Shown here in pieces: positions 1,244 through 15,930 of a DNA stretch of 64,000 nt (positions are counted from its first letter, which is position 1; every line of letters starts with the position of its first letter). The translations under genes were made by a program, and so were the position numbers. Below the pieces are notes generated by a model, which made no database searches, was not told the DNA's origin, and saw nothing but the letters and a program-made list of their open reading frames with translations. This stretch comes from Allobosea sp. OK403 (GTDB lineage: Bacteria; Pseudomonadota; Alphaproteobacteria; Rhizobiales; Beijerinckiaceae). Where the stretch lies: assembly GCF_900113835.1 (NCBI RefSeq), contig NZ_FOQV01000001.1, forward strand, positions 62,001 through 126,000, read 5' to 3'.

Positions 1244-2056
1244 CTAGCGGCTTGCAGCAGAGCGGTTGAACAGCACCGCGCCGAGCGCGCGCGCCTTCTC
1301 CTCCGTGCAGGCCTCGGGACCGAGATGGCCGGCGAGGTGCGGATTGGCGCTGGCGATATCGGCGAGCGAACCATTCTCCGGCACGCGTGGGTGAGCGAGG
1401 CAGACCGCGCCCTGTTCCGACCAGCCCGCCTCGAACGGCATCGCTTCGCCGGCGTCCAGCTTCTGGACGTCGAGATCGTCATAGATGTCGATCGTCATGC
1501 CGTTGCGGGTATAGGGATGATCGTTGCCGCCGTAATCGGCGCGCACCATGCGCATGCAGGCGTTGTAGAGCGGCAGCATGGGGCTGCCATCGCGCGCGTT
1601 TTCCCAGGGGTGATAGCCGAAGCGCACGCATTTGCCGCGCGCGCCGCTGGTGCAGACCAGCTCCAGCTCGGTCGATGGCGCGGCGGCGACCGAGCCGTCG
1701 GCTCGCGCTCGTCCAGCCAGCGGAAAGCCCTGCTGGCGCTTATCGGGGCCGGGCATGCAGAGCGGTTGCCAGGCGCCGTCCTTGTCCTGCGCGCTGAAAC
1801 TGTGCAGCCAGACCTTGCCGGTTTTGTCGTCCGGATCGGCTTCGAGCGCGTCGAGCCGCGCCCGCACCGCGCCGCCATCGGCGGTGGCGATCAGCAATGT
1901 CGCGCCGATCAGTTCCGGCGAATGCAGCACGCGGCCATCCGCCAGGGTGACGCGCAACTGTGTGCCCTCGGCCTCGACCAGCGGGGCGGGCTGCGCTGCG
2001 CTGGCGGAAGTGATGCCGAAGAGGAAGATGGCGGCGATCAGGGTTTTGACGGGCAT
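1244..2056 (-). CDS. Secreted ADYC-family protein
   Basis: A 270-residue protein with a signal peptide (MPVKTLIAAIFLFGITSASA, cleavage after ASA). The middle has the family-like stretches GKCVRFGYHPW and YNACMRMVRADYGG, followed by YTRNGMTIDIYDD, which match my memory of the ADYC domain seen in exported proteins of myxobacteria and other Proteobacteria. Six cysteines in the mature part suggest disulfides in the periplasm or outside. The signature here reads ADYG, so the name-giving Cys is replaced. A GAGGAG ribosome site precedes the ATG by 7 bases. It lies 80 bases downstream of the pentapeptide-repeat gene on the same strand. Biochemical function is unknown. Confidence 0.75.
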   Translation of the reverse strand: MPVKTLIAAIFLFGITSASAAQPAPLVEAEGTQLRVTLADGRVLHSPELIGATLLIATADGGAVRARLDALEADPDDKTGKVWLHSFSAQDKDGAWQPLCMPGPDKRQQGFPLAGRARADGSVAAAPSTELELVCTSGARGKCVRFGYHPWENARDGSPMLPLYNACMRMVRADYGGNDHPYTRNGMTIDIYDDLDVQKLDAGEAMPFEAGWSEQGAVCLAHPRVPENGSLADIASANPHLAGHLGPEACTEEKARALGAVLFNRSAASR

Positions 2057-2136
2057 GGCGAACTCCTCGGATCGGAAGAATGATAGCGGGGTCGGCGAAC
2101 GTCCTCGCCGCCCCGCCCAACTGGCGTCCGTCCGGC

Positions 2137-2478
2137 TTAGCGCTGCGAGATCGTCGCCGGCAGTTCGATGCCGAGCACGCGGCCTTCGGAAGGCGCGCTG
2201 GCGGCAATGCCGTTGACCACGAAGCCGTTGAGGCGGACACCCTGGATGCTCCGGCCGTTGAGGGCGAGGGTGTTCGGCCAGATGCCGTTGGCGGCGAGGC
2301 TATTGGTGTAGAGGCCGTTCAGAACGAAGCCATTGAGGACGAAGCCGTTGCTGGCGAGGCTGTTCAGCTTGATGCCATTGGTGGCGAGGCTGTTCATCTT
2401 CACGCCAGCCTGTGCGGGGGCGGCAGCGGCGACCAGGGCGGTGAGGGCGGCGGCGGTGACGAGGGCTTTGGTGAACAT
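2137..2478 (-). CDS. Small secreted protein of 13 tandem N-G pentapeptides
   Basis: A 113-residue protein with a signal peptide (cleavage near APAQA-G25). Residues 26 to 90 divide without a gap into 13 five-residue units with the pattern x-hydrophobic-x-N-[G/S/T], for example IKLNS, LASNG, FVLNG, VRLNG; only the RSIQG unit breaks the Asn. A short tail follows. The period and the Asn spacing suggest a stacked beta-helix like that of pentapeptide-repeat proteins, but the register differs from the canonical A(D/N)LXX. AAGGAG lies 7 bases before the ATG. It heads the leftward unit with the ADYC gene and is divergent from the winged-helix/TPR regulator. Role unknown. Confidence 0.8.
   Translation of the reverse strand: MFTKALVTAAALTALVAAAAPAQAGVKMNSLATNGIKLNSLASNGFVLNGFVLNGLYTNSLAANGIWPNTLALNGRSIQGVRLNGFVVNGIAASAPSEGRVLGIELPATISQR
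2209..2403 (-). repeat. Region coding 13 in-frame pentapeptide units
   Basis: Thirteen 15-base coding units in perfect frame, with no insertions between them. Adjacent units are diverged at the nucleotide level except for the two FVLNG units, so the array is old and kept by selection on the protein rather than a fresh slippage product. Confidence 0.7.
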
Positions 2479-2637
2479 GGTGGTCTCCTTGGGGTCTGGA
2501 CCGGCGTGATTGCCGCGTCCGATGAAAGGACCATGCCGGAGAGGCTGGCGCCTCGCTTGAAGAGCCGCTTGCTTTTCCCTTAAGAATCCCTTGTTTGTTT
2601 CTTAAGACAGATCGGTCTGGCGGGCCGGGGAGCACCA
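2479..2637. promoter_or_regulatory. Divergent promoter region, pentapeptide gene / regulator
   Basis: A 159-base gap between two divergently read genes, one of them a winged-helix regulator. It must hold the promoters for both. The right half is locally AT-rich (2570-2610, with TTAAG and repeated TTTC/CTTG runs), which fits a core promoter, but I cannot assign -35/-10 boxes with confidence. The regulator probably binds here, by analogy with other divergent regulator-target pairs. Confidence 0.4.
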
Positions 2638-4203
2638 ATGCGGTTTGTCTTCGGCGAGCATGTCCTCGACGCCGGTCGGCGCGAGTTGAGCCGGGCCGGA
2701 TCGCCGGTCGCGATCGAGCCGCAGGTTTTCGATCTCCTGCTCTATCTCCTGCGCAATCGGGACCGCATGGTGAGCAAGGACGAGGTGCTCGATAGCGTCT
2801 GGCATGGCCGCATCGTCGCGGAATCGTCCCTGACCACCCGCATGAATGCCGCCCGCAAGGCGGTCGGCGACAGCGGCGAGGCGCAAAGCGTCATCCGCAC
2901 CGTGCCGCGCAAGGGCTTTCGTTTCGTGGCGGAGGTCCAGGAACATGCGCCGCCTGTCGCGCACGATGTCTTGCCCGCTTCTGCGGCGTCCGAGCCTGCC
3001 GTGAAGCCGGCCTTGGCCCTGCCCGAGAAGCCGTCCATCGCCCTGCTGCCCTTCGACAATATGGGCGGCGACCCCGAACAGGATTATTTCGCCGACGGGC
3101 TGGTCGAGGATATCACCACGGCGCTCTCACGCCTGCGCTGGCTCTTCGTCATCGCGCGCAATTCGAGCTTTGCCTATAAGGGCCGGGCCGTGGATATCCG
3201 CGATGTCGGCCGGGAGCTTGGCGTTCGCTACGTGCTGGAGGGCAGCGTCCGCACGTCGGGAACCCGGATGCGCCTCAATGTTCAGCTCATCGAGGCCGAG
3301 AGCGGCCGCCATATCTGGGCCGACCGCTACGACCGCCCGATGGACGATATTTTTGCGCTTCAGGATGAGATCACCGAGCGCGTCGTGGCGGCCATCGAGC
3401 CCAGCATTTATGCCGAGGAGGGCTACCGGGCTCAGATGCGCCACGACCGGCCCGAGGCCTGGGGCCTGGCGATGCGGGCCTGGACCCTGATCAACCGCTT
3501 GCGGCGAGCCGATGCCTACGAGGCCATGGAACTCCTGCGCCAGGCGCTGGAGATCGAGCCGGATTACGCGCGGGCCCACGCGTTCATCTCCTGGGCCATG
3601 ATGATCGGCGTGCAATGCGGCTGGTATCGTGACGCCGATGTTGGGGCTGCCATCATCGAGCACGCCTTTACGGCGAAACGCCTCGATCCGGACGAGCCCT
3701 GGTCCTGCATGACTTATGCCTTCGTGCTTGGCGCCGAGGGGCGCCATGGCGAGGCCATCGCCGAAGCGCGGCGCACCATGGAAGTTGTGCCGAATTTTGC
3801 GCTCGGCCGCGCCATGTTCGCCTGGATGCTGATACGTGCCGGTCATTTCGACGAGGCGGTCAGCGAGGCCGAGCGCGCTCGCAGGCTTAACCCGGTTGGC
3901 ACGTTTTCAGGCTTCTATAGCTTGATTTTCGGCTTCGCCCTGCTGGCCGCGCGGCGCTTCGAGGAGGCGCTTCAGCCGCTCTTGCAAGCCCTGACGGAAT
4001 TCCCCGAATGGTCGAGCACCTATAACTGCGTGGCCAGCGTCTACGGCCATCTCGGCCGGATCGAACTCGCGCAGCCGGTGCTGGAACGCCAGCGCCAGGT
4101 TGCGCCGCATATGTGCCTCGGGCTGCTGCGCCAGCGTCTCGCCAAATTCGCGCATACGCCGACCTTGCTTGAAGGCCTCGCCAAGGCTGGAATGCGGGAG
4201 TGA
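2638..4203 (+). CDS. CadC-like winged-helix regulator with FlgO/TolB-like domain and TPRs
   Basis: A 521-residue protein. Residues 1-100 form an OmpR/PhoB-type DNA-binding winged helix (EPQVFDLLLYLL, VSKDEVLDSVWHGRIVAESSLTTRMNAARKAVGD, RTVPRKGFRFVA). Residues about 125-270 match the periplasmic FlgO/TolB_N-like module often fused to such regulators (SIALLPFDNMGGDPEQDYFADGL). The rest is helical TPR repeats. There is no obvious membrane segment, so unlike CadC it appears to be cytoplasmic. There is no receiver domain, so the input signal probably enters through the TPR part. GGGGAG precedes the ATG. It is divergent from the pentapeptide and ADYC genes, its most likely targets. Confidence 0.85.
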   Translation: MRFVFGEHVLDAGRRELSRAGSPVAIEPQVFDLLLYLLRNRDRMVSKDEVLDSVWHGRIVAESSLTTRMNAARKAVGDSGEAQSVIRTVPRKGFRFVAEVQEHAPPVAHDVLPASAASEPAVKPALALPEKPSIALLPFDNMGGDPEQDYFADGLVEDITTALSRLRWLFVIARNSSFAYKGRAVDIRDVGRELGVRYVLEGSVRTSGTRMRLNVQLIEAESGRHIWADRYDRPMDDIFALQDEITERVVAAIEPSIYAEEGYRAQMRHDRPEAWGLAMRAWTLINRLRRADAYEAMELLRQALEIEPDYARAHAFISWAMMIGVQCGWYRDADVGAAIIEHAFTAKRLDPDEPWSCMTYAFVLGAEGRHGEAIAEARRTMEVVPNFALGRAMFAWMLIRAGHFDEAVSEAERARRLNPVGTFSGFYSLIFGFALLAARRFEEALQPLLQALTEFPEWSSTYNCVASVYGHLGRIELAQPVLERQRQVAPHMCLGLLRQRLAKFAHTPTLLEGLAKAGMRE

Positions 4204-4419: not shown

Positions 4420-4461
4420 TCCAAACAGATGGGGCCCTAGTCCAAACAGATGGGGCCCTAG
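4420..4461. repeat. Two tandem copies of a 21-base unit
   Basis: The 21-base unit TCCAAACAGATGGGGCCCTAG occurs twice back to back (4420-4440 and 4441-4461) with no mismatch. The second copy contains the stop codon of the PpkA-type kinase gene at 4458-4460. A perfect tandem duplication like this is usually recent. Confidence 0.85.
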
Positions 4462-7400
4462 AAGCCCAATCCGAGACCTGGCGTGACGCGCCTGGGTGCT
4501 GCTGCCGCGGGCGCCGCTGCGGCGGCCGGCGCGGCCCGAGCCGGCTTGCTTTCGGCGGCGCGCTCGCGCTGGGGTTGCTGGGCGCGCTGCACCGGCTCAG
4601 TGCGCTGCGGGCGACGCACGAGGGCAGGGGCCTGCTTGCCCGGCGCAGGGGCGACATTCGTCGGGGGGCAGGTCGGGGCAGGCCGCTCGCGCAGATCGAG
4701 CAGTTGCTCGGGCGTGATCGCAGCCGGTTCGGGGGCCGCGCCGATGCGCTGGCGGTAGATGCGCAGCGCTTCCCGCGTCGCAACATTGAGATTGCCGCTG
4801 ATCCGGCCGGCATAGCAGCCGATCCGCGTCAATTCCTCCTGCGTTTCGCGCGTCAGCGCTGCAGGGTCGGTCGGGACCGGGCGCGGTGGCCGCGCATCGG
4901 CCAATGGCTTGGGGGCGAGCTGGCTGGGGTCTGCCAGGGCAACCTGCATGCCCTGGTCCTGGGCGGCGGCGTTGCGCTGCTCGACCTCTTCGATGGATTG
5001 GCGCGGCGCGGTCACCCCGGCGCGGCGCATGGCCTCGGCCTCCTCAGTCAGCCAGCGCGCCTGCGCCTGTTCAAGCGCGATGCGCTGGCGCTCGGTGATC
5101 TGCGCATCCTCCGCGGTGGCCCGCGTTTCCGCGGTGGCGCTGTCGATCTTGCGCTTTGCCTCCTCGTCGGCGCGTAAGGCGGCGACACGGTTGGCCTCCG
5201 CGTCGGCAGCCGCCCTGGCGCTTTGCTCCTCGGCGACGCGGTGCGCCTCTGCAGCCTGAAGCTCGGTCTGTTTGCGCGCTTCCTCCGAGGCCTTGGCCTC
5301 CGCGATTTTGCGCGCGTCTTCAGCCGTCTTGGCCTCTGCGGCGAGGCGCTTATCCTCGATCGCCTTCGCCTGGGCCTGCTTGCGGGCCTCTTCGGCGGCC
5401 TTGGCCTCGGCGATTTTGCGGGCTTCCTCGGCCGCCTTGGCTTCAGCCGCCTGCCGGCGCTCCTCGGCGAGCTTGGCGGCCTGGGCCTGCTTGCGCGCGT
5501 CTTCCTCTGCCTTGGCCTCGGCGAGCTTGCGGGCGTTCTCCGCCGCCTTCGCTTCCGCGGCGAGGCGGCGTTCCTCGGCAGCCTTGGCGAGAGCCTGCTT
5601 GCGGGTCTCCTCCTCAGCCTTGGCCTCGGCGAGCTTGCGGGCGTCTTCAGCCGCTTTCGCTTCAGCCGCGAGGCGCTTGTCTTCGGCCGCCTTGACGAGA
5701 GCCTGCTTGCGGGCCTCCTCCGCGGCCTTGCTCTCGGCGAGCTTGCGGGCATCCTCTGCCGCTTTCGCTTCCGCTGCGAGGCGCTTGTCCTCGGCTGCCT
5801 TGGCGAGGACCTGCTTGCGCGCCTCCTCTGCGGCCATGGCCTCGGCGAGCTTGCGGGCGTCCTCGGCCGCTTTCGCTTCCGCTGCGATACGACGGTCCTC
5901 GGCGGCCTTGGCGTCGGCCGCGCGGCGCGCTTCCTCGGTGGCCTTGGCTTCCGCGACCTTTGCCTCGGCTGCGAGCCTGCGATCCTCGGCGACCTTCGCC
6001 TCGGTCAGGCGGCGCACGTCGTCGGCGGTCTTGGCTTCAGCGAGCTTGCGTGCATCCTCAGCCGCTCTCACCTCGGCGGCGACCCGGCGTTCCTCCGCAG
6101 CTTTGGCCTCCGCCAGCTTGCGGGCTTCCTCGGCGGCTTTCGCCTCTGCGACGCGGCGCTCTTCTGCGGCCTTCGCTTCTGCCGCACGGCGCGCGTCCTC
6201 GACCGCCTTCGCCTCTGCGACTTTGCGTGCATCGTCTGCGGCCTTGGCCTCCGCCGCACGGCGCGCATCTTCTGCGGCCTTCGCCTCTGCGAGCTTGCGC
6301 GCATCCTCTGCGGCCTTGGCTTCGGCTGCGCGGCGGGCATCCTCAGTGGCTTTCGCCTCCGCGACACGGCGCTCTTCGGCGGCTTTGGCCTCAGCGACCC
6401 GGCGTGCCTCCTCGGCCGCCCTGGCTTCCGCCAGTCTGCGGGCGTCGTCGGCAGCCTTTGCCTCTGCCTGGCGACGCGTCTCTTCGAGCTCGCGCTCGCG
6501 CGCCAGCTTCTCGCTCGCGGCCTTCTCCTGCAGGGCGCGCTCCTGCTCGGCGCGCTCCTGGGTCTGCCGGGCTCGTGCATCTTCGGCGGTGCGGCGCGCA
6601 GCCTGGGCGGCAAGCGCCTCCTCATCGGCCAGGCGCGCCGGGCCGGTACTGGCGATCTGGGCAGGGCTACTGCCGCCCTTCAGCAGGTCGGTGCCGAAAT
6701 AAAGCCCGCCGCCGAGCAGAGCGACGGCACTGAGCCCGGCTGCGATCGCCATGCCCGTCTTGCTGCTGCCGCCGCCCGTCGTCGCTTTGGCCGGCTTGCC
6801 CACGGCAGGCTGCCAGGCCGCGACCTCCGCCATCGTCGCCGGGCGGTTCTCCGGCAGGGGCTGCAGCATCTTTTCGAGCAGCGGCCGGAAGCGCGGATCG
6901 ATCTTCGACAGGTCGGGCACGACACGGCGTTTGTCGATGACCTCGACCTGCGAGCCGTTCATGTCGATGGGGCGGCCCTGAAGGCACTCCGCCAGGACCA
7001 GGCCGAAGCTGTAGATGTCCGATTTCGGGGTGACGTCGCCGCCGAACAGGCCGAGCTGCTCCGGCGAGACATAGTTGTACTTGCCGGCGAAGCCGCTGCC
7101 GATGATCGTCTGCTCGCCGGCCCGCGTCGAGCGCGCGATGCCGAAATCGAGGATCTTGGCCAAGGCCACGTCGGCGCCGGGCAGGATGACGTTGTCGGGG
7201 GCGACGTCGCGATGGATGATGCCGAGCTTGTGCGCCGAATGCAGCCCCGAGGCGATCCGTTGCTGCAGGATGCAGGTATCCTCGAAGGACAATGGTCCGC
7301 GGACGAGATGGTCCTTCAGCGAGGTCCCGTCGACGAACTCCATCGCGAGATAGGCGCGGCCGAGCTGCGGGTCGATCGAGAACAGGTAATAGCGCACGAT

Positions 7401-7652
7401 CGCCTCGTGCTGCAGGTTGTGCAGCGAGGAGGCTTCCTTGCGGAACAGGGCGAGGGCGCTCTCGTTCTCGGCGAGATCGGAGCGGATCATCTTGATCGCC
7501 ACCGCATCGCCGGTCTGGATGGCGTAGCCCTTATAGATCTCGCCCATGCCGCCGGCGGCGATGGGGTGGTCGATCCGATAGATCCCGTTCAGCGTCGTAC
7601 CGACGGCGACGCGGGCGCGGGGGATGATGACGGTGGCGCCGTTGTCGCTCAT
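4458..7652 (-). CDS. ppkA: PpkA-type membrane Ser/Thr kinase of the type VI secretion cluster
   Basis: A 1064-residue protein. Residues about 25-280 are a Hanks-type kinase with the glycine loop AAGGMGEIYKG, AIKM lysine, catalytic HRDVAPDN near 148 and DFG near 169. A Pro/Gly linker leads to one membrane helix at about 298-322. About 500 residues of Ala/Lys/Glu/Arg-rich coiled coil (AEAKAAEDARK-type repeats) follow, then a C-terminal piece resembling a peptidoglycan-binding fold (LTRIGCYAGRISGNLN..TREALRIYRQ). PpkA kinases control T6SS firing by threonine phosphorylation, opposed by the PP2C phosphatase encoded just upstream. The start at 7652 is preferred to one 19 codons upstream because GAAGG precedes it. 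No Fha partner is in the window. Confidence 0.85.
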   Translation of the reverse strand: MSDNGATVIIPRARVAVGTTLNGIYRIDHPIAAGGMGEIYKGYAIQTGDAVAIKMIRSDLAENESALALFRKEASSLHNLQHEAIVRYYLFSIDPQLGRAYLAMEFVDGTSLKDHLVRGPLSFEDTCILQQRIASGLHSAHKLGIIHRDVAPDNVILPGADVALAKILDFGIARSTRAGEQTIIGSGFAGKYNYVSPEQLGLFGGDVTPKSDIYSFGLVLAECLQGRPIDMNGSQVEVIDKRRVVPDLSKIDPRFRPLLEKMLQPLPENRPATMAEVAAWQPAVGKPAKATTGGGSSKTGMAIAAGLSAVALLGGGLYFGTDLLKGGSSPAQIASTGPARLADEEALAAQAARRTAEDARARQTQERAEQERALQEKAASEKLARERELEETRRQAEAKAADDARRLAEARAAEEARRVAEAKAAEERRVAEAKATEDARRAAEAKAAEDARKLAEAKAAEDARRAAEAKAADDARKVAEAKAVEDARRAAEAKAAEERRVAEAKAAEEARKLAEAKAAEERRVAAEVRAAEDARKLAEAKTADDVRRLTEAKVAEDRRLAAEAKVAEAKATEEARRAADAKAAEDRRIAAEAKAAEDARKLAEAMAAEEARKQVLAKAAEDKRLAAEAKAAEDARKLAESKAAEEARKQALVKAAEDKRLAAEAKAAEDARKLAEAKAEEETRKQALAKAAEERRLAAEAKAAENARKLAEAKAEEDARKQAQAAKLAEERRQAAEAKAAEEARKIAEAKAAEEARKQAQAKAIEDKRLAAEAKTAEDARKIAEAKASEEARKQTELQAAEAHRVAEEQSARAAADAEANRVAALRADEEAKRKIDSATAETRATAEDAQITERQRIALEQAQARWLTEEAEAMRRAGVTAPRQSIEEVEQRNAAAQDQGMQVALADPSQLAPKPLADARPPRPVPTDPAALTRETQEELTRIGCYAGRISGNLNVATREALRIYRQRIGAAPEPAAITPEQLLDLRERPAPTCPPTNVAPAPGKQAPALVRRPQRTEPVQRAQQPQRERAAESKPARAAPAAAAAPAAAAPRRVTPGLGLGF

Positions 7653-7754
7653 GGCGCACGGCCTTCGCCGGAGCTGGCGGCCGACAGGGCGCGGACAAGG
7701 CGGCGGCAACGCCGCCGTATCTCCGTCATCCCTGTTTCATTCCGCCGCATCGCT

Positions 7755-8618
7755 TCAGGCCTCGCGCCCGTCGGCGTCGCTTCTGGCCGGCGAGGGGGGG
7801 ACTGGCGCTTCCGCGTCCTTCGGCTCGCAGGCCACGACGATCACCGTGACGTTGTCGCTCGCGCCGCGCGCAAGAGTGAGCTCGACCAGATGGTCGCAGG
7901 CCGCCTGCGGCGCGCGCCCGGCCACGCCGGCCAGGATCTCGGTATCCGAGACATGACCGGTCAGGCCGTCGCTGCATAGCACGAAAACGTCCCCCTCTTC
8001 CACCACGCCTTGAATGAGGTCGAGATCGGGAAGGTCGTTCACGCCGATGGCGCGCGTGATGATGTTGCGCCCCGGCCAGCGCTTGGCCTCCTCCGGGGTC
8101 AATTGCCCCTGGTCGACGAGATCCTGCACCTCAGTATGGTCGCGCGAGATCTGCGACAGCCGGCCTTGCCTGACGCAGTAGGTCCGGCTGTCGCCGGCCC
8201 AGCAGCAGGCGAAGAAGCGCTCATAGATCAGGAGCGCGACGACGGTGGTGCCGAAGGTGGCAAGACCACGTTCCTCGCCCGCCTTGCGCAGGCCGATATT
8301 GGCCTGCAGCACCCGGTCCTGGAACCGCGCGAGAAGATCCGCCGCGGAGGCCGCCTGGCCGATCGTGCGCAGCGCCTCGACGACGGTGGAGGAGGCGAGC
8401 TTGCCGGCCTCATAGCCGCCCATGCCGTCGGCGACGCACCAGAGGCCGGCGTCAGTGTGAACGATGTAGCTGTCCTCGTTCTCGCTGCGCACCTTGCCGA
8501 CATGGGTGGTCGCTCCGGTTTCGAAGCGGAAGCTGGCCTGCTGGTTGAGCGCGCCGGCAAGCATGGCGAGCGGATCGTTGCTCGCGCGCATGGACGGGGG
8601 CGGAAGGGTGCTGTCCAT
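7755..8618 (-). CDS. pppA: PP2C-family Ser/Thr phosphatase, T6SS regulator
   Basis: A 287-residue soluble phosphatase with the metal-binding PP2C motifs in order: RSENEDS, DGMGGYEAG, GDSRTY, SDGLTGHV and ASDNVTV. It should reverse phosphorylation by the adjacent PpkA-type kinase and so reset type VI activity. Its ATG overlaps the stop of tagF by one base (ATGA arrangement), implying translational coupling. A 102-base gap separates it from the kinase gene. The Pro-rich C-terminal tail is probably disordered. Confidence 0.9.
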   Translation of the reverse strand: MDSTLPPPSMRASNDPLAMLAGALNQQASFRFETGATTHVGKVRSENEDSYIVHTDAGLWCVADGMGGYEAGKLASSTVVEALRTIGQAASAADLLARFQDRVLQANIGLRKAGEERGLATFGTTVVALLIYERFFACCWAGDSRTYCVRQGRLSQISRDHTEVQDLVDQGQLTPEEAKRWPGRNIITRAIGVNDLPDLDLIQGVVEEGDVFVLCSDGLTGHVSDTEILAGVAGRAPQAACDHLVELTLARGASDNVTVIVVACEPKDAEAPVPPSPARSDADGREA

Positions 8619-9364
8619 CAGGGCTCGACTCCGATCCTGGCCGGTTGTGCGCTCTCGCCGCTCTCGTCATTGCCGCCGCTTTCCGGACTGGCGGCCGGGC
8701 CCGTCAGCAGCAGCGTGAAATGCTGTGCCTCCGGCAGCCGCTCGGCACAAAGCGCAAGCGCCGGAAACCTATCGCCTCCGATGCTCCACCACCAGGAGCC
8801 GGCCGCCTGGCGGGCGGCCTTGTCCGATCGTTCGAGCCGCGCCAGCAAGGCCGGGATCTCGGTCGCGGCGTCGTCGCTCACGCCGAGCAGCCCCCGATTG
8901 GCGGCGACGATCGCAGGCTGCGTGTCGCGCGCGACGCTCTCGGGCAAGGGCAGGCTTTCGAGCGCGGCCAGCGTCGCCTCATAGGCAGCGTCTGGCTCCA
9001 GCGTATCGAGCAGGAAGGCTTCCGCGCTCTCGAACCAGGCAGCCTGCGCGTTCTCGGTCGGCGCTGCGAAGGCCTGGCCTTCGGGCGCCATCGCCAGGAC
9101 AGCGAGCGGGAAATAGCGGCCGACGCCGTCGAGCGAGGGCATGAAGGCGCCGAGCACCTCGCTGCCGAGATGCGAGCGGCCGAGCCAGAAGCGCCAGATC
9201 GGCGCGCTGAGATAGGCCTCCTTCCAGCCTGGCCCGAGGGCCTGGATGCTGGCCGCCATGCCGCCCTGCAGCCAGATCTCCCAGAAGCGCAGGAGTTCGC
9301 GCGGCATGTTCACCGCGATGAAATCGCGCTTGGCCGGTAGCTTGCCGAAAAGGGCGCAGTGCAT
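8618..9364 (-). CDS. tagF: Type VI secretion-associated protein TagF
   Basis: A 248-residue TagF (DUF2094) protein: the N-terminal GKLPAKRDFIAVNMPRELLRFWEIWLQ and the APIWRFWL..GAFMPSLDGVGRYFPL stretch are typical of the family. In Pseudomonas and Agrobacterium TagF domains repress assembly post-translationally, in Agrobacterium as a fusion with PppA. Here the two functions are separate genes with a one-base overlap, which fits a joint role. The gene starts six bases after the end of tssM. Confidence 0.9.
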   Translation of the reverse strand: MHCALFGKLPAKRDFIAVNMPRELLRFWEIWLQGGMAASIQALGPGWKEAYLSAPIWRFWLGRSHLGSEVLGAFMPSLDGVGRYFPLAVLAMAPEGQAFAAPTENAQAAWFESAEAFLLDTLEPDAAYEATLAALESLPLPESVARDTQPAIVAANRGLLGVSDDAATEIPALLARLERSDKAARQAAGSWWWSIGGDRFPALALCAERLPEAQHFTLLLTGPAASPESGGNDESGESAQPARIGVEP

Positions 9365-9370
9365 CCTGCC

Positions 9371-12300
9371 TCAGCCTCCCGGACATTTGAATTCCCGCAG
9401 AGCCGGCAATGTCAGCGGGTTCTTCAGGGACGATACATTGATCTGGTAGGAAATCGACTGGCCGCCGACGGAGTAGCTGGCGACCAAGGCCTCGCCGCGC
9501 TTCGTCACCGAGCCGAGATCGAGGAAGCGGAAGAAGGCCCAGGGGCCGCGCTTCTCCGGTCCGAAGACGGGTGGGCTGCTGGTCACGCCGCCAAACAGCC
9601 CCGTGCTCGTGGTCTGGCTCGAAATCACCGTGCGGTCGAGCCCGGCGGGCCCCGGCCAGACCACCGGCGTCGGTCCGCCGCCAGCCTGCGCCACCACGGC
9701 GACGCCGCTGATGTCGAGCTTGATCGTCGGCGCGGAGCCTGAGCTCGCCGCCGGCTGCGGCGTGATCGCCATGGTGAAGGAGGGCATGTTGCCGCCGGTG
9801 CCGAAGAACGCGTCCTTGATGTCGGCGGCGCGCTGGAACTCCTTGAGCGCGGCGGGCGGCAGTGAGCGCGCCACGCTGATGTTCTGCTTGAAGGCCCATT
9901 CGGGCTTGGACGTGTCGACCAGCGGCGCGAGATTGGTGGTGTAGAATTTGTCCATGATGCCGCCCGTGCCGAAGAGCCGGCCGAAATCGGCCAGCGGCAC
10001 GTCGCGGTCGCTGCCGCGCGCAAAGGGGTAGCGGTTGGTGACGATCAGGTTGCAGGTCGCGGTGACCTGCGAGCGCAGGTCCTGCAGGAGCTGCGAGACC
10101 GAACTGCCGGTCAGTTCATTCTCGAAGCTCGTGGCGGCGGTCTGGATCAGGCCGGAAAAGGGCTGCGGGATCAGGTTGGCGCTGTTGCGCAAGGTCTGGA
10201 TCTGCCCGGGCAAGGTAGCGTTGACCTGCGGCGCCAGCGCCGGGTTGGTCGCGAGCAGACGCAGATTCTGGTTCACCTCGGAGAAGGCGAGCAGCACCTG
10301 GTCGATCGGCCGGCGGCCCTGCTCGCCTTCGAATAATTGGTGGAACGGCCTGAAGGCCGCCTCGATGGTCGCGCCCGGAGCCTGTTCGCCGCTGGCGGTG
10401 TTGGGCTTTTCCATCGCCTTGAGCGCGATATCCATGCGCGAGAGCGTTGTCGAGGCGCTGCCCGTATTGACGCCGAGCCGCTGCGCCAGGTTCTGCGCCT
10501 GCTGGGCCTGGCTCAAAGAGCCGCCTGCCGATTGCGTCGCGGTCTGCCCGGCCGGCGCCGGGCGCTCGCGGGTGAGCTTGGTCTCGTCGCGGATCGATTC
10601 CAGCACCTGCTTCAGCGGCGAGGTGACGGCCGACGCCGCGCTCAGCGCCGGATATTGCGGCTTGTTGGCGAGCAGTGGCCGGAAGCGCAGTGCTGCCATG
10701 GTGCTCTGCCAGGAGGCGATGAAATCCTTGGCGTAGAGCTCCAGCAAGGCGCGCGGCAGCGCCTCGTACTGATCCGAGACGGCGGTCTGGTCGCCGGCCG
10801 TGCCCAGCACCCAGCGCTCCTCCTCGATCTGCTTGGCGACGTCGCGCAGGCGGCCGATGAAGCCCTCATGGAAGCCGGCATAGGTATAGAAGAACGGGAC
10901 GCGGACATTCTCGAGCTCGCCGCCGCGGGGCCCTTCGAAGACGAGCTTGGCGTCGGCGCCGCCCTTGGCGGCGGCCGTCCAGTCGGGCTTGCCCGGTGAG
11001 GCGCGCGCCTGGACGCGCAGCAATTGATAGGCGCGCTCGGCCAGGCTCAACCGCGCCAGCGTCTTCTGCGCCTCCTCGATCAATGGCTCGTTGAGCGTCA
11101 ACGTGCCGGCACCGCCGGAATCGGGCAGGCGCAGCATCGCCGTCAGGTGTTGGCTGAGCTCCTCGCGCAGGCGCGCATTGGCGGCACCCTGATAGAGATT
11201 GTCGACCCAGTCGCGCCGCATCCACAGCAGGATCAGATCCTCGTCCATCTTCTGGCGGCCGCCGAGGATGAGATAGACCTTGAGCGCCTCGTAGATGAAA
11301 TCGGGCCGCGAGCGATTGGCCTCGATCAGCTCTTCCATGCGGAAGATCAGGCGCGAGCGCAGCAGGCGCTCCAGCCCGGTCTTGTAGACAGCCTCCGAGG
11401 ACGAGCCGATCCGGTCCCACTGGCTCAGGCCGAAAGTCGCCTGCACCGGCGGCGAGACGCCCTCCTGCGCATAGCCGGCGGGCAGGGCGCGCAGCGCATC
11501 GAGCAGCGGCACGATCTTCTCCAGATCGCGATCGGCGACGGTCGGCTCCTGGATGATCGGGGCCGCGGTCGCCACGAAGGTCTTGGTTTGGTCGTTGGTC
11601 TCGGCAATCAGATTGACGTTGCGATTGTAGCTCGTCCACCACGCCGCCGCCCCGCCCAGCGTCACCAAAGCGAGTAGGCTATAGGCGGCCGCCTTCAAGG
11701 CGAAGGCGCGGCGCACCGCCCTGCGGTCGGTCGAGACCCAGGCGGATTCGCCGATCACCACCTTGGTGATCAGATCGGTGAGGAAGAAGCTCTTGCCAGA
11801 GCCCGACATTGCGGCGGCGGCGACCTGGTTCGCGCCGAAATTGCGCGCCATCGCACCGATCAGCTGGTCGATCGGTGTGCCCTGCTGTGTGCCCGAGGTG
11901 AAATAGAAGCCGCGCAGGGTCGCGCGCGAATGATAGCGCGTCGGCTCGAAGATGCGGTTGAGGAACTCGATGATCGGGGTCTTCACCGCCGCCATCTGGG
12001 TCGGGAAGCCGAAGATCTGCACGCGCGCATTGGGCGTTGGCTCCTCCTGGAGCCGGTCAGGCAATTCGGAATTGAGGCGCTCCACCAGCGCGTCGAACTC
12101 GTCGGGCACCTCGCTGATCATGTTCAGCGTCTTGTCGTCGGTCTGGAAGGTATGACCCCAGACCACGCGCCGCGAGGCCTCGTTCAGATGCTGGAAATAC
12201 TCCATGAACCCGGAGACGAGGTCCATCTTGGTGAACAGCGCATAGACCGGGAAATCGACCTTGAGATTGTCGTGCAACTCGGTCAATCGCGCCCGGATCG

Positions 12301-12994
12301 CATCGGAATGGGCGTTGAGTTCGGCGGGCGACGCGGTCAGCACATCCTCGATGCTGATCGCCAGCATGACGCCGTTGATCGGCTGGTTCGGCCGGTTTTT
12401 CTTGAGCAGGTCGAGGAACGAGAGCCAGCTCTTGCGGTCGGCCGAGGCGTCGGAATCCTGCGTGGTGTAGCGGCCGGCCGTGTCGATCAGCACGGCGTCG
12501 TCGGTGAACCACCAGTCGCAATAGCGCGTGCCGCCGACGCCGGCGACGGCAGAGGGCGCGCCGCCCTTGGCGAGCGGGAATTTCAGCCCCGAATTGACCA
12601 GAGCCGTGGTCTTGCCGGAGCCCGGCGGGCCGATCAGCACATACCAGGGCAGCTCGTAGAGATAGTTGGCGCTCGAGCCGGCGGATTTCTTCAGCGTCAG
12701 CAGCGCGTCCGCCATGCGCTCGCCGAGCACGTCGCCATCGCCTTCGTCGACGGCGGCATCGGCCAGGCCCTGCTCCAGCGCCGCCGCCTCGCGCCTGCGC
12801 CGGATGATACCCCAGACCAGCAGGCCGAGCACGATGAGCGACACCACCGCGATGATGGCGAAGCGCACCCATTCGGAATCGAACGGATAGATCCCGGCAA
12901 TCGAGATCAACGGGCTGGCGAACCAGACCAGCGCGCCGAAGGCGGCAAGCCCGATCAGGCTGATGATGATGCGCAACCAGATGGCCAGGGTCAT
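9371..12994 (-). CDS. tssM: T6SS membrane-complex protein TssM (IcmF)
   Basis: A 1207-residue inner-membrane protein with two N-terminal helices (residues about 5-30 and 42-65), a cytoplasmic NTPase-like domain with Walker A GPPGSGKTTA near 128, a third membrane helix near 430-450 and a long periplasmic part ending in the TssM C-terminal domain. It forms the trans-envelope core with TssL and the lipoprotein TssJ; no tssJ is present here. The Walker A motif is intact, unlike some TssM proteins. It lies 18 bases after tssL and six before tagF, within the operon. Confidence 0.93.
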   Translation of the reverse strand: MTLAIWLRIIISLIGLAAFGALVWFASPLISIAGIYPFDSEWVRFAIIAVVSLIVLGLLVWGIIRRRREAAALEQGLADAAVDEGDGDVLGERMADALLTLKKSAGSSANYLYELPWYVLIGPPGSGKTTALVNSGLKFPLAKGGAPSAVAGVGGTRYCDWWFTDDAVLIDTAGRYTTQDSDASADRKSWLSFLDLLKKNRPNQPINGVMLAISIEDVLTASPAELNAHSDAIRARLTELHDNLKVDFPVYALFTKMDLVSGFMEYFQHLNEASRRVVWGHTFQTDDKTLNMISEVPDEFDALVERLNSELPDRLQEEPTPNARVQIFGFPTQMAAVKTPIIEFLNRIFEPTRYHSRATLRGFYFTSGTQQGTPIDQLIGAMARNFGANQVAAAAMSGSGKSFFLTDLITKVVIGESAWVSTDRRAVRRAFALKAAAYSLLALVTLGGAAAWWTSYNRNVNLIAETNDQTKTFVATAAPIIQEPTVADRDLEKIVPLLDALRALPAGYAQEGVSPPVQATFGLSQWDRIGSSSEAVYKTGLERLLRSRLIFRMEELIEANRSRPDFIYEALKVYLILGGRQKMDEDLILLWMRRDWVDNLYQGAANARLREELSQHLTAMLRLPDSGGAGTLTLNEPLIEEAQKTLARLSLAERAYQLLRVQARASPGKPDWTAAAKGGADAKLVFEGPRGGELENVRVPFFYTYAGFHEGFIGRLRDVAKQIEEERWVLGTAGDQTAVSDQYEALPRALLELYAKDFIASWQSTMAALRFRPLLANKPQYPALSAASAVTSPLKQVLESIRDETKLTRERPAPAGQTATQSAGGSLSQAQQAQNLAQRLGVNTGSASTTLSRMDIALKAMEKPNTASGEQAPGATIEAAFRPFHQLFEGEQGRRPIDQVLLAFSEVNQNLRLLATNPALAPQVNATLPGQIQTLRNSANLIPQPFSGLIQTAATSFENELTGSSVSQLLQDLRSQVTATCNLIVTNRYPFARGSDRDVPLADFGRLFGTGGIMDKFYTTNLAPLVDTSKPEWAFKQNISVARSLPPAALKEFQRAADIKDAFFGTGGNMPSFTMAITPQPAASSGSAPTIKLDISGVAVVAQAGGGPTPVVWPGPAGLDRTVISSQTTSTGLFGGVTSSPPVFGPEKRGPWAFFRFLDLGSVTKRGEALVASYSVGGQSISYQINVSSLKNPLTLPALREFKCPGG

Positions 12995-13012
12995 GAGCGC
13001 CTCCGCCTCAGC

Positions 13013-14596
13013 TCAGCGTTCATGCGGGATCTGCACGTCGACGCGCCGGTTGCGCGCGCGACCTTCGATCGTATCGTTCGAGGCGATGGGGGCGGTGTCG
13101 CCCTTGCCGTCGGCGAGGATGCGCTTCTTGTCGCTGAGATCCTCCGTGAGGAGGGCTCCGACGGCCTTGGCACGCTCGACCGACAATTCGTAGTTGTTGG
13201 CGAAGCGCACGGTCTTGATCGGCGTGTTGTCGGAATGGCCGGTGACCTTGATCTGGCCGGGCTCCTTCTCCAGCGTCTGCGCGATGCGCTTGGCGAGCGG
13301 CCGGAAGGCGTCGATCACCGTCGCCTTGCCGGGCTCGAAGGAGGCGAAGCTGTTGACGCGCACGATGATGCCGGTCGAGACGGAATCCACCGCCAGCTTC
13401 TGCTCGCCGATCTCGGTCGCCAGCGCCGCGCGGATGCGTTCGAGCTGCGTCGTCTTGATCGGCGGCGGAGGCGTGGGCTTCACCGGCTGCACGACGCGCC
13501 GCTCGATCGAGACGTCGGTCGTCGGGAAGATGCGCCCGACATCGTCGATCACCGCGTCGCTGCCGGAGCTCAGGAGCGAGCGCAGGGTCAGGTACATGGC
13601 AAGCAGCAGGACGCCCGCAAGCGACGCCATCGCCCAGAACGGGATGCGCACGGTCGTGCCGCGTGCCGCCATGTCCTGGCCCTGCCAGCGCGGCGAAAGC
13701 TCCTGATTGACGCGCTGCTTCACGCGCCGCAGCGTCTCGTAGAGATTGCGCTGGATCGTCTGCAAGGTCGCCTGGCCGCCGGCCGAGGTCCGGTGCACAC
13801 CCTGGAAGCCCAGCGCCAGGCAGGCATGCTGCAGCTCCAGCACGTTGTAGTTCAGGATCGGGTCCTGCTTGGCCCGGTCTAGCTCCTCGAAGAAGCGGAT
13901 GCCGCCGGTGCGCTCGCCGAAGAAGCGGCTCAGCATGCTGTACTGCGTCCAGAGCTGGCGATCCTGCGCGGGGATGTTCTGGACGATGTCGTCGGCGGTG
14001 GCGCAGAGCGTGTACTTCGCCTGCTTGGCCTGGTCCTGGCCGATGCCGGCGCCGGTGACGTCGGCCTCGAAGCGCTGGATCGCGCCCGCGACCTGGTCCA
14101 TCAACTGGCTGAACGAGGCATAGGCCAGGGCCACGCGCAGGCGCCCGAGGATCGAGAGGATCGGCGCGGCCGCGCTCATGATCGGATTTGCATTGGGCGC
14201 CACCGGCATCTCGCGCGGCGCGACCTGTGGCACGGAGCCTGGTGGTTGCGGCTGCGGCGCGGATTGGGGCGGGGGAGCGTAGCTCTGCGCCGGCGGCGGC
14301 TGGTAGGGCGGCGGGGCTGGCTGCGGATAGCTCTGGCCCGGCGCATCGGCCCAGGCGTCCTGCGCGGCGGCGTTGGGGTCTGCCTGCGGGTAGCTCGGCG
14401 GCGGCTGGTAGCCCGAGGCCGGGTGGTAGGAGGCGGGCGGGGGCGGGTAGGCCGAAGGCGTGAACGGGCCCGGCTGCTCGGGCTGCGAGCTGGGCGGGCT
14501 CGGGGCGACCGGGCGCCTGCCACCGGGATTGGGCCGCACGACCGTGCGCTCATTGGGGTTGTAGGCAGGTTCGAACGGGTCTTTGGGCTCGGTCAT
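13013..14596 (-). CDS. tssL: T6SS membrane-complex protein TssL with OmpA-like domain
   Basis: A 527-residue evolved TssL. Residues 1-135 are an unusually long Pro/Gln/Tyr-rich cytoplasmic extension, residues about 140-310 the DotU-type domain, about 317-342 the single membrane helix, and the C-terminal 140 residues an OmpA-like peptidoglycan-binding domain (VTGHSDNTP, NYELSVERAKAV, GRARNRRVDV). The OmpA part anchors the complex to the wall. The first four bases overlap the end of tssK (ATGA), indicating coupled translation. Confidence 0.93.
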   Translation of the reverse strand: MTEPKDPFEPAYNPNERTVVRPNPGGRRPVAPSPPSSQPEQPGPFTPSAYPPPPASYHPASGYQPPPSYPQADPNAAAQDAWADAPGQSYPQPAPPPYQPPPAQSYAPPPQSAPQPQPPGSVPQVAPREMPVAPNANPIMSAAAPILSILGRLRVALAYASFSQLMDQVAGAIQRFEADVTGAGIGQDQAKQAKYTLCATADDIVQNIPAQDRQLWTQYSMLSRFFGERTGGIRFFEELDRAKQDPILNYNVLELQHACLALGFQGVHRTSAGGQATLQTIQRNLYETLRRVKQRVNQELSPRWQGQDMAARGTTVRIPFWAMASLAGVLLLAMYLTLRSLLSSGSDAVIDDVGRIFPTTDVSIERRVVQPVKPTPPPPIKTTQLERIRAALATEIGEQKLAVDSVSTGIIVRVNSFASFEPGKATVIDAFRPLAKRIAQTLEKEPGQIKVTGHSDNTPIKTVRFANNYELSVERAKAVGALLTEDLSDKKRILADGKGDTAPIASNDTIEGRARNRRVDVQIPHER

Positions 14597-15930
14597 CGCC
14601 TGTCTCCGAGGATCGCCCAGAGATCGAGCTGCAGTTCCGGCCAGTCGCCCGAGAAATGCAGGCCGATCGCGTTTGCCGTGCTGAATTCAGGCCAGAGTGG
14701 CGAGTTCTTGTCCAGCAGGAAGTAGACATGGTCGGCGACCGCGCGGATCTGCGGTGGCGGGGTCGGAATGTGATTGAGGCCGACGCCCGGCAGATGAGCG
14801 TTAACGATGTCGTTCATCTTCGTGTTCGGGCCGATCTTGAAGAGCTGCGGGAATTGCAGCTGGATCTCGATCAGGGGGCGGCGCGCCGCGACTTCCAGCA
14901 CGAAATTGGCGTTGCGGAACAGGCTGCGGTCGCGGATCGTCGAGACGAAGGCGTTGGGCGCGCGCTCGATCAGTTCGAGCCGGATGGCGCGGCGGCCGAG
15001 CCTGGCGCTGAGGAAATCCTGCAGGTCGCGCAGGATCGGCTCGAAGACGAGTTCGAGATTGTCGTGGTCGTAGCGTGGATAGGTCCGCGCCCGGCGCTCC
15101 GGCGTGGCGAAGGTCGCGAGTTCGCCGACCATCCGCACGAACTCCTCATAGAGCCGCTCGGGATGGATATAGCGCGAATGCCGGAAATGCTGCAGCACCG
15201 GCAGGTGCCGGTTGAGCAATTGCAGCACGAAGAAATCGGCGCTCTGCAGGCCGCCGCCGGCGGTCGGATCCGCCGCATAGCGCGCCAACTCCTCTAGCTT
15301 GGCCTCGATCCAGCCGATGGCGCGGTCGATCCAGCCGTCGATCGCAGGATAGGCCGAAGCGATCAGCACCGGCGGGATGAATTTGTCGTCGAAGACGATG
15401 GTCTTGTCGCGCACCTCGACGATGCGGGCGACGGGCATGCTGACATAGCCGGGTTTGGCGGTCTTGCGCAGATCGAAGCCGAGCCGGGGATAGGCGACGT
15501 CGATCTCCTCCTCGACGCGCATGGCGGCAGTCGAGTCGATCAGTGTCTCACTGGCGGTGACATAGCGGCTGGCGGTGGCGCTCGTCGGCTCGTCGACCTC
15601 GCGCGTATTGGCCGCCGCGACCGGCATGGTCAGCCAGAGCAGCTGCTTGGCGGCGGCGTCCGGCACATCGATGGGAGCGGGCAGGGGGCTGTGGGCGGGA
15701 ATATCGAAGGGCGTGCCGTCGGGCAGGATGCCGGCCGCGCGGCGCAGGCCGAAGCGGCTCTGCTGGGCGAGGTCGCGGTCGATCTCGAGAGTCGAGAAGC
15801 CCCAGGGATAAGGCGTGATGAAGCGCGTGCGCGCATCGACGAGGTTTTCGAGATAGCGATCCGCCTGCTGCAGATGATGCGGCCGCAGAAAAAGTCCTTC
15901 GCCCCAGACGACCTTACTGTTCCAAGACAT
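14593..15930 (-). CDS. tssK: T6SS baseplate-membrane adaptor TssK
   Basis: A 445-residue TssK: the invariant opening VVWGEGLFLRPHHLQQADRY is present, and the length matches the family. TssK trimers link the baseplate (TssEFG) to the TssL-TssM membrane complex. The baseplate and sheath genes themselves are missing from the window, so they must be encoded elsewhere if the system is functional. It is the first canonical tss gene of the leftward operon; a 182-base stretch without a gene (15931-16112) lies upstream and may hold a promoter. Confidence 0.93.
   Translation of the reverse strand: MSWNSKVVWGEGLFLRPHHLQQADRYLENLVDARTRFITPYPWGFSTLEIDRDLAQQSRFGLRRAAGILPDGTPFDIPAHSPLPAPIDVPDAAAKQLLWLTMPVAAANTREVDEPTSATASRYVTASETLIDSTAAMRVEEEIDVAYPRLGFDLRKTAKPGYVSMPVARIVEVRDKTIVFDDKFIPPVLIASAYPAIDGWIDRAIGWIEAKLEELARYAADPTAGGGLQSADFFVLQLLNRHLPVLQHFRHSRYIHPERLYEEFVRMVGELATFATPERRARTYPRYDHDNLELVFEPILRDLQDFLSARLGRRAIRLELIERAPNAFVSTIRDRSLFRNANFVLEVAARRPLIEIQLQFPQLFKIGPNTKMNDIVNAHLPGVGLNHIPTPPPQIRAVADHVYFLLDKNSPLWPEFSTANAIGLHFSGDWPELQLDLWAILGDRR

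Follow-up and report, generated by a model that had tools for sequence, protein, structure and literature searches.

Analysis of a 64,000-nucleotide stretch of the Allobosea sp. OK403 genome (contig NZ_FOQV01000001.1, positions 62,001 to 126,000; hereinafter, the window) identified two adjacent genes for predicted exported proteins, one containing an uninterrupted array of 13 pentapeptides with a nearly invariant Asn (hereinafter, the array) and the other an ADYC domain (PF20032), with a winged-helix/TPR regulator gene divergent from both. Given the conservation of the arrangement, the array and ADYC proteins almost certainly act as a functional pair; our overall reading, which we hold with modest confidence, is that they make up a regulated module of two exported proteins. 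A domain of unknown function and a hypothetical repeat protein, each so far an orphan annotation, are thereby joined in a single module that can be tested and that has an operator-like site and naturally fused forms. No function for the pair and no paper on the ADYC domain were found in the literature searched, where the uses of the word ADYC concern other matters.

Array and ADYC genes in the window and in other genomes

The locus consists of the following features:

1244..2056, minus strand: gene for the ADYC-domain protein (PF20032), predicted exported; 270 amino acids, six Cys, both Cys of the facultative pair absent
2137..2478, minus strand: gene for the Asn-pentapeptide array protein, predicted exported; 113 amino acids with a signal-like N-terminus, 13 pentads and C-terminal VLGIELP
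2209..2403, minus strand: the 13 pentads inside the array gene (protein residues 26-90)
2556..2604, minus strand: operator-like comb in the 159-bp region between the divergent genes; five YAAG words at spacings of 11, 11, 11 and 12 bp
2638..4203, plus strand: gene for a winged-helix (Trans_reg_C) and TPR regulator; 521 amino acids, divergent from the array gene

The array and ADYC genes are separated by 80 bp, and the divergent starts of the array and regulator genes lie 159 bp apart. By eye, the N-termini of the two predicted exported proteins, MFTKALVTAAALTALVAAAAPAQA and MPVKTLIAAIFLFGITSASA, were judged to be signal peptide-like; the arrays of relatives were assessed using the usual rules of thumb for signal peptides. 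The three open reading frames described by an earlier reading of the sequence alone (hereinafter, the sequence-only reading), namely, an array protein of gap-free pentapeptides, a six-Cys ADYC-type protein and a divergent winged-helix/TPR regulator, were all found as described, with the qualification that the motif after which the ADYC domain is named reads ADYG in the window protein.

A scan of the genome collection with four ADYC proteins yielded 140 relatives, from which 80 loci were kept; one of these, L028, with an ADYC identical to that of L025, was dropped from the counts, leaving 79 loci, at which genes were called with a simple codon score. In 53 of the 79 loci, ADYC has an array of at least five units with Asn at period five no more than 2 kb away and on its own strand (in total, the scan gave 55 near arrays on the strand of ADYC, a single near antisense artefact and three arrays farther away), and no arrays appeared in one residue shuffle per near frame. 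By reading, 17 more of the 79 loci were seen to have arrays that are shorter, irregular, fused, farther from ADYC, of the Q type or of period six (L018, L023, L030, L033, L035, L039, L044, L053, L054, L057, L071, L076, L078, L084, L085, L086 and L088); in L015, L029, L042 and L045, a contig edge lies 66 to 656 bases upstream. The exported array of L039 (2234-2713) has 18 HNA-type pentads and lies about 2.1 kb upstream of ADYC. In both annotated Rhizobium plasmid records examined, the array gene beside ADYC is labelled only as a hypothetical protein.

The two genes also co-occur at the level of whole genomes. Within the genus, ADYC was detected in 3 of 37 genomes, including the one under study. 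The array search covered 61 genomes, 24 more than the ADYC search, and its strong matches (E 2e-32 or better) fall in those three. Five other genomes of the genus gave weak array matches (E 1.6e-4 to 3.6e-7); the three of these loci that were read (in G367, G008 and G350) encode Asp/Leu-type pentapeptide proteins without N arrays. Among 289 genomes of the class, ADYC was detected in two, and array matches at E up to 1e-8 in three, namely, the two ADYC genomes, where the array is exported, and G254, where the repeat has no evident signal peptide. In G182, the array match stops 286 bases from the end of one contig and ADYC starts near the beginning of another; the two genes are likely adjacent in this genome. 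The claim that the two exported genes belong together is thus upheld by the strict counts, the loci added by reading and the co-occurrence in the same genomes.

The fused forms that had been proposed as a check on the pairing were found in another phylum. ADYC is present in 5 of 77 sampled Myxococcota genomes, with 26 matches in a Nannocystis genome. An N array of at least five units precedes ADYC in the same frame, forming one chain, in 10 of 31 myxobacterial ADYC frames (a set that includes overlapping loci counted twice), all from one Nannocystis genome; 7 of these 10 fusions contain a pattern resembling the common lipobox. Three other myxobacterial genomes have two-unit in-frame stubs, and G421 has none. 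ADYC genes of Nannocystis also occur in tandem (L126, L154, L155 and L156), and some of the tandem copies carry a non-NG N-terminal segment, CGFNSAEVNGRSIRELNLDG, which may be a degenerate array.

The pentapeptide array

The 13 pentads of the window protein (VKMNS, LATNG, IKLNS, LASNG, FVLNG, FVLNG, LYTNS, LAANG, IWPNT, LALNG, RSIQG, VRLNG and FVVNG) follow one another without gaps, with N at position 4 in 12 of the 13 and Q in one. The longest unbroken run of N at period five has 10 members, a length that 100,000 random shuffles of the part beyond residue 24 never produced. Among the relatives, the arrays comprise 5-20 units of varying sequence, positions 1 and 3 are hydrophobic (in a median of 0.88 and 0.64 of the units, respectively), and a FAIDGIELP-like motif is conserved at the C-terminus. 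In the Gly/Ser-rich arrays of L025 and L049, N is retained as the other positions drift, and in L071, L078 and L085, many N are replaced by Q.

The sequence-only reading had also proposed that the repeat forms a small beta-helix scaffold, a claim that the analysis did not support. In the AlphaFold2 model of the window array protein, the mean predicted local distance difference test (pLDDT) score is 55.7, most of the array falls below 50 (about 45) and no strands are predicted. A predicted disorder had been named as an outcome that would speak against the proposal, and the low scores do count against it; given that the repeat is short and hard to align, with an imperfect repeat alignment behind the model, they do not prove that the array is disordered.

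Comparison with the known pentapeptide-repeat families points in the same direction. According to PMC8145042, pentapeptide repeat proteins are defined by at least eight contiguous pentapeptides, and PMC12864828 describes secreted members with an envelope role, such as YjbI of Caulobacter. The window array resembles the PF00805 proteins, including YjbI as presented there, in consisting of tandem five-residue units, more than eight of them contiguous (13), and in being predicted to be exported. It differs in that N comes after the central hydrophobic residue, not before it, and in the lack of a consensus-fitting unit, a confident beta-helix or a PF00805 match. None of the 13 pentads fits the consensus [S,T,A,V][D,N][L,F][S,T,R][G] or its 2019 extension in any of the five registers, and none of the arrays of 52 loci has half its units matching the consensus. 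In the Pfam search at E up to 1, the window protein matched only GLTT (19.2 bits against a cut-off of 21) and not PF00805, which was matched at E up to 0.01 by 5 of 30 array relatives (best E 8.4e-7); weak matches among the relatives are to GLTT, lamprin and chorion. A classical pentapeptide-repeat protein was rejected as the likely identity of the window array, both the consensus and the profile tests having failed.

The ADYC protein

The window ADYC protein matches PF20032 over nearly the entire domain, from profile position 3 to 175 of 176, with a score of 170.3 bits (cut-off, 27 bits; E 5.7e-50), and its six Cys, at 100, 135, 143, 167, 219 and 250, presumably form three disulfides. In an alignment of 78 related, and hence non-independent, ADYC sequences, from which L028, L045 and L059 were left out for a broken or short ADYC, four Cys columns never vary. 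Cys 219 and Cys 250 occur together in 72 sequences, are both missing from 4 and are mixed in 2; at columns 176 and 238, 40 sequences have two Cys, 38 have none and no sequence is mixed. The latter pair thus shows the covariation pattern of a dispensable disulfide. Because Cys occupies the motif column in only 40 of the 78 sequences, the Cys of the motif is not obligatory in the family, and the dispensability suggested for the 176/238 disulfide would account for the ADYG of the window protein, which combines a full-length domain match with Gly in place of the named Cys and with the absence of the covarying Cys at 238.

The predicted model of the ADYC protein is confident (mean pLDDT 93.8; predicted template modelling score 0.88). 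A Foldseek search with this model gave no match at E up to 0.001, and comparison of the ADYC profile with the sequences of solved structures gave nothing better than E 0.44. The best VIA-align results are to small Tudor/SH3-type barrels (Z 4.1, root-mean-square deviation 2.4, 54 residues), with rows covering 24-133. As far as the model and the profile can tell, no clear solved relative stands out; the C-terminal half of the protein is barely covered by the structure comparison, and accordingly, we make no claim of a new fold.

The regulator and the YAAG comb

The regulator matches Trans_reg_C at residues 22-96 (E 6.5e-13) along with TPR families. It has the N-terminal OmpR-type winged helix by which CadC-like regulators are recognized and, as in the CadC/HilA-type regulators, this DNA-binding domain is followed by a long TPR C-terminal part. 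Unlike these regulators, it scores far below the cut-offs of NCBIfam NF007540 and NF009037 (77.7 vs 400 and 48.4 vs 589, respectively) and shows no clear membrane segment, a crude hydropathy scan detecting only a weak stretch at 420-438, within the TPR part. Relatives of the regulator at E up to 1e-60 are present in 27 of the 61 genomes of the genus; orthologues with 69% identity were found only in the two pair-carrying congeners, the next being at 52% or lower. One of these congeners, G032, has the unit in a tandem duplication (L006, 6676-10997) that comprises two arrays, a complete ADYC, a truncated second ADYC and a 5' fragment of the regulator gene. Five other loci, L012, L017, L019, L024 and L038, have a regulator homologue (E up to 1e-8) at most about 2 kb from ADYC; the matches in L012, L017 and L024 cover the C-terminal part only, and that in L079 the DNA-binding domain alone.

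The region between the array and regulator genes is conserved in both congeners. None of 5000 dinucleotide shuffles of the 159-bp region reproduces the comb of YAAG words, the word having been chosen after viewing the alignment, and chains of four or more YAAG words are found nowhere else in the 64-kb window. A search for the exact four-word pattern gave one site in the 6.6-Mb genome under study (G000), one site, before the array, in G019, and three places in G032. Two of the G032 places precede its arrays; the third lies directly before another winged-helix regulator (L145, 4957-5934), which has a DNA-binding domain closely similar to that of the pair's regulator and is followed by a gene that we take to be GMC-oxidoreductase-like. 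A reversed control pattern had no matches in the scanned genomes.

Operators of the PhoB/OmpR type consist of 11-bp direct repeats. The comb is similar to these in comprising direct repeats in helical phase beside a Trans_reg_C regulator and differs in having five YAAG words and in the lack of a receiver domain found on the window regulator. In L038, where the regulator is homologous, two YAAG words stand at a distance of 11 bp and the region passes a period-11 scan, and L024 has a strong period-10 repeat of a different word. Upstream of 41 other array starts, the scan was mostly negative: 6 of the 41 pass for period 11 at p up to 0.05, three of these six (L025, L036 and L037) being identical in sequence, compared with 2, 2, 0 and 0 for periods 9, 10, 12 and 13. 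The notion of a dedicated regulator, put forward in the sequence-only reading, stands insofar as an operator-like comb precedes the array, and falls short in that the class of the regulator is not constant and most relatives lack this regulator. Sigma-70 promoter, terminator and Rfam scans gave no match at the locus.

Signalling genes near the pair

Elsewhere, the neighbours of the pair include multi-PAS hybrid kinases and OmpR-type response regulators, extracytoplasmic function (ECF) sigma factors with Ser/Thr kinases in Lysobacterales and Tahibacter, and LuxR-type regulators in Rhizobium, including two annotated plasmids. Of the 32 downstream genes scanned, 15 contain a receiver domain, and of the 30 upstream genes scanned, 8 contain a HisKA domain; among the 66 control genes, each of the two domains was found in 3. 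The near sets were hand-picked, with related loci non-independent (30 of 66 upstream genes, 29 divergent and one codirectional; 32 of 72 downstream genes, 31 codirectional and one opposite); the controls are genes located 4-7.8 kb away, 66 of the 67 proposed having been used and one left out. A signalling gene lies within 2.5 kb in 36 of the 79 loci, or in 28 of the 53 loci with 2.5 kb of sequence on both sides. The density of hits to signalling profiles (54 in 362 kb near the pair vs 23 in 631 kb farther away) is biased because the profiles were seeded from near genes, and the comparison of Pfam domains is the fairer test. In some gammaproteobacteria, a kinase gene abuts ADYC. According to the crude hydropathy scan, membrane segments about 90-115 residues apart are predicted in four of five alphaproteobacterial kinases, and membrane segments also in the three Ser/Thr kinases checked; none was predicted in the four gammaproteobacterial kinases checked.

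Interpretation

We propose the following scheme. The array and ADYC genes would form one operon, with products that leave the cytoplasm and act together. The winged-helix/TPR regulator would bind the 11-bp-phased YAAG comb and switch the operon and its own gene; judging from the sequence, control through the comb is probable. The IELP-type strand at the C-terminus of the array may dock on ADYC, such that the separate genes rebuild the single chain of Nannocystis; the C-terminal motif resembles, by eye, the array-ADYC linker of some fusions, which suggests docking, and we give this step an even chance. ADYC could then hold the repeat as an element of the envelope or surface, in the form of a rod with an Asn ladder or of a flexible spacer resembling an elastomer, produced in response to local sensors; any one form of such an element is a tentative suggestion.

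Several observations weigh against this reading. ADYC occurs without an array, with sequence available on both sides, in five loci (L016, L021, L022, L059, where the ADYC frame has only 199 amino acids, and L080), which implies that ADYC may work alone; several of the 17 arrays added by reading have only two or three units; and the gene order is not fixed, the array being located 3' of ADYC in nine loci, including those of Rhizobium and Neorhizobium (L051, L061, L063, L064, L065, L066, L074, L077 and L082). The repeat itself is not uniform: 2 of 54 arrays lack the hydrophobic positions, the array beside ADYC in L018 (1015-1683) has a period of six, of the SNGLSM type, and the AlphaFold2 model of the array is of low confidence. 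With regard to the comb, the word was selected by inspection, a chain of five of any trimer arose in 7 of 5000 shuffles, and YAAG is absent from the intergenic region tested in L019, which adjoins a partial homologue of the regulator.

Incidental adjacency, with the array as a chance low-complexity gene, could be argued from the variation of the arrays in length and sequence, and is extremely improbable considering the recurrence in Alpha-, Beta- and Gammaproteobacteria, Myxococcota, Fibrobacteria and Nostoc, the fusions, the co-occurrence in the same genomes and the lack of arrays in shuffles; on the strength of these counts, we reject it. The nature of the array is less settled. A short classical beta-helix rod, as in the secreted YjbI (PMC12864828), with ADYC as a cap, would fit the period of exactly five, the hydrophobic positions 1 and 3 and the PF00805 matches of some relatives, but the low pLDDT, the absence of strands, the misfit to the consensus and the lack of a PF00805 match in the window protein make it rather unlikely. 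An intrinsically flexible, elastomer-like or self-assembling chain, in which the Asn-Gly turn and not a hydrophobic core is conserved, would account for the poor model, for N being kept as other positions drift, for the substitution of Q and for the weak GLTT, lamprin and chorion matches; the two hydrophobic positions are, however, kept in most arrays, and low pLDDT on an imperfectly aligned repeat is weak evidence of disorder, so that this possibility also appears doubtful.

The direction of signalling can be read in two ways as well. The pair might be an input, that is, a periplasmic sensor or ligand module feeding transducers such as phosphorelay kinases, membrane Ser/Thr kinases and CadC-like regulators, in line with the enrichment of receiver and HisKA genes, the abutting kinase genes and the membrane segments predicted in four of the five alphaproteobacterial and all three Ser/Thr kinases checked. 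Against this, the regulator classes are unrelated, and the four checked gammaproteobacterial kinases without predicted membrane segments, like the window regulator with its single weak stretch, could hardly touch an exported partner; these features argue against a direct sensor role, which we consider unlikely. Conversely, the frequent location of the pair beside unrelated regulators (phosphorelay, ECF sigma factor with Ser/Thr kinase, LuxR) makes it look like a regulated output, and the parsimonious view is that the pair, whether as separate proteins or fused in a single chain, is an exported output module under local sensory control. A more specific picture, which we put forward only speculatively, is an undescribed extracytoplasmic module of an Asn-amide-ladder fibre or spacer anchored by a disulfide-locked cap, independently wired in several phyla to at least four unrelated signalling systems, and serving either as their common output in environmental responses or as a portable sensor in the periplasm. 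Since different lineages have the pair connected to unrelated sensors, the inducing signal in any one of them would reveal its use, and the 49-bp comb offers a direct handle on that signal in the genome under study.

Neighbouring genes

A type VI secretion-like cluster (window positions 4458-15930, minus strand) starts next to the regulator gene. It was considered as a part of the unit and rejected because both congeners have other neighbours at that place. The cluster encodes a Ser/Thr kinase with a long Ala/Glu/Lys-rich linker, followed by a PP2C phosphatase, and its further open reading frames are presumably TagF-, TssM-, DotU/OmpA- and TssK-like.

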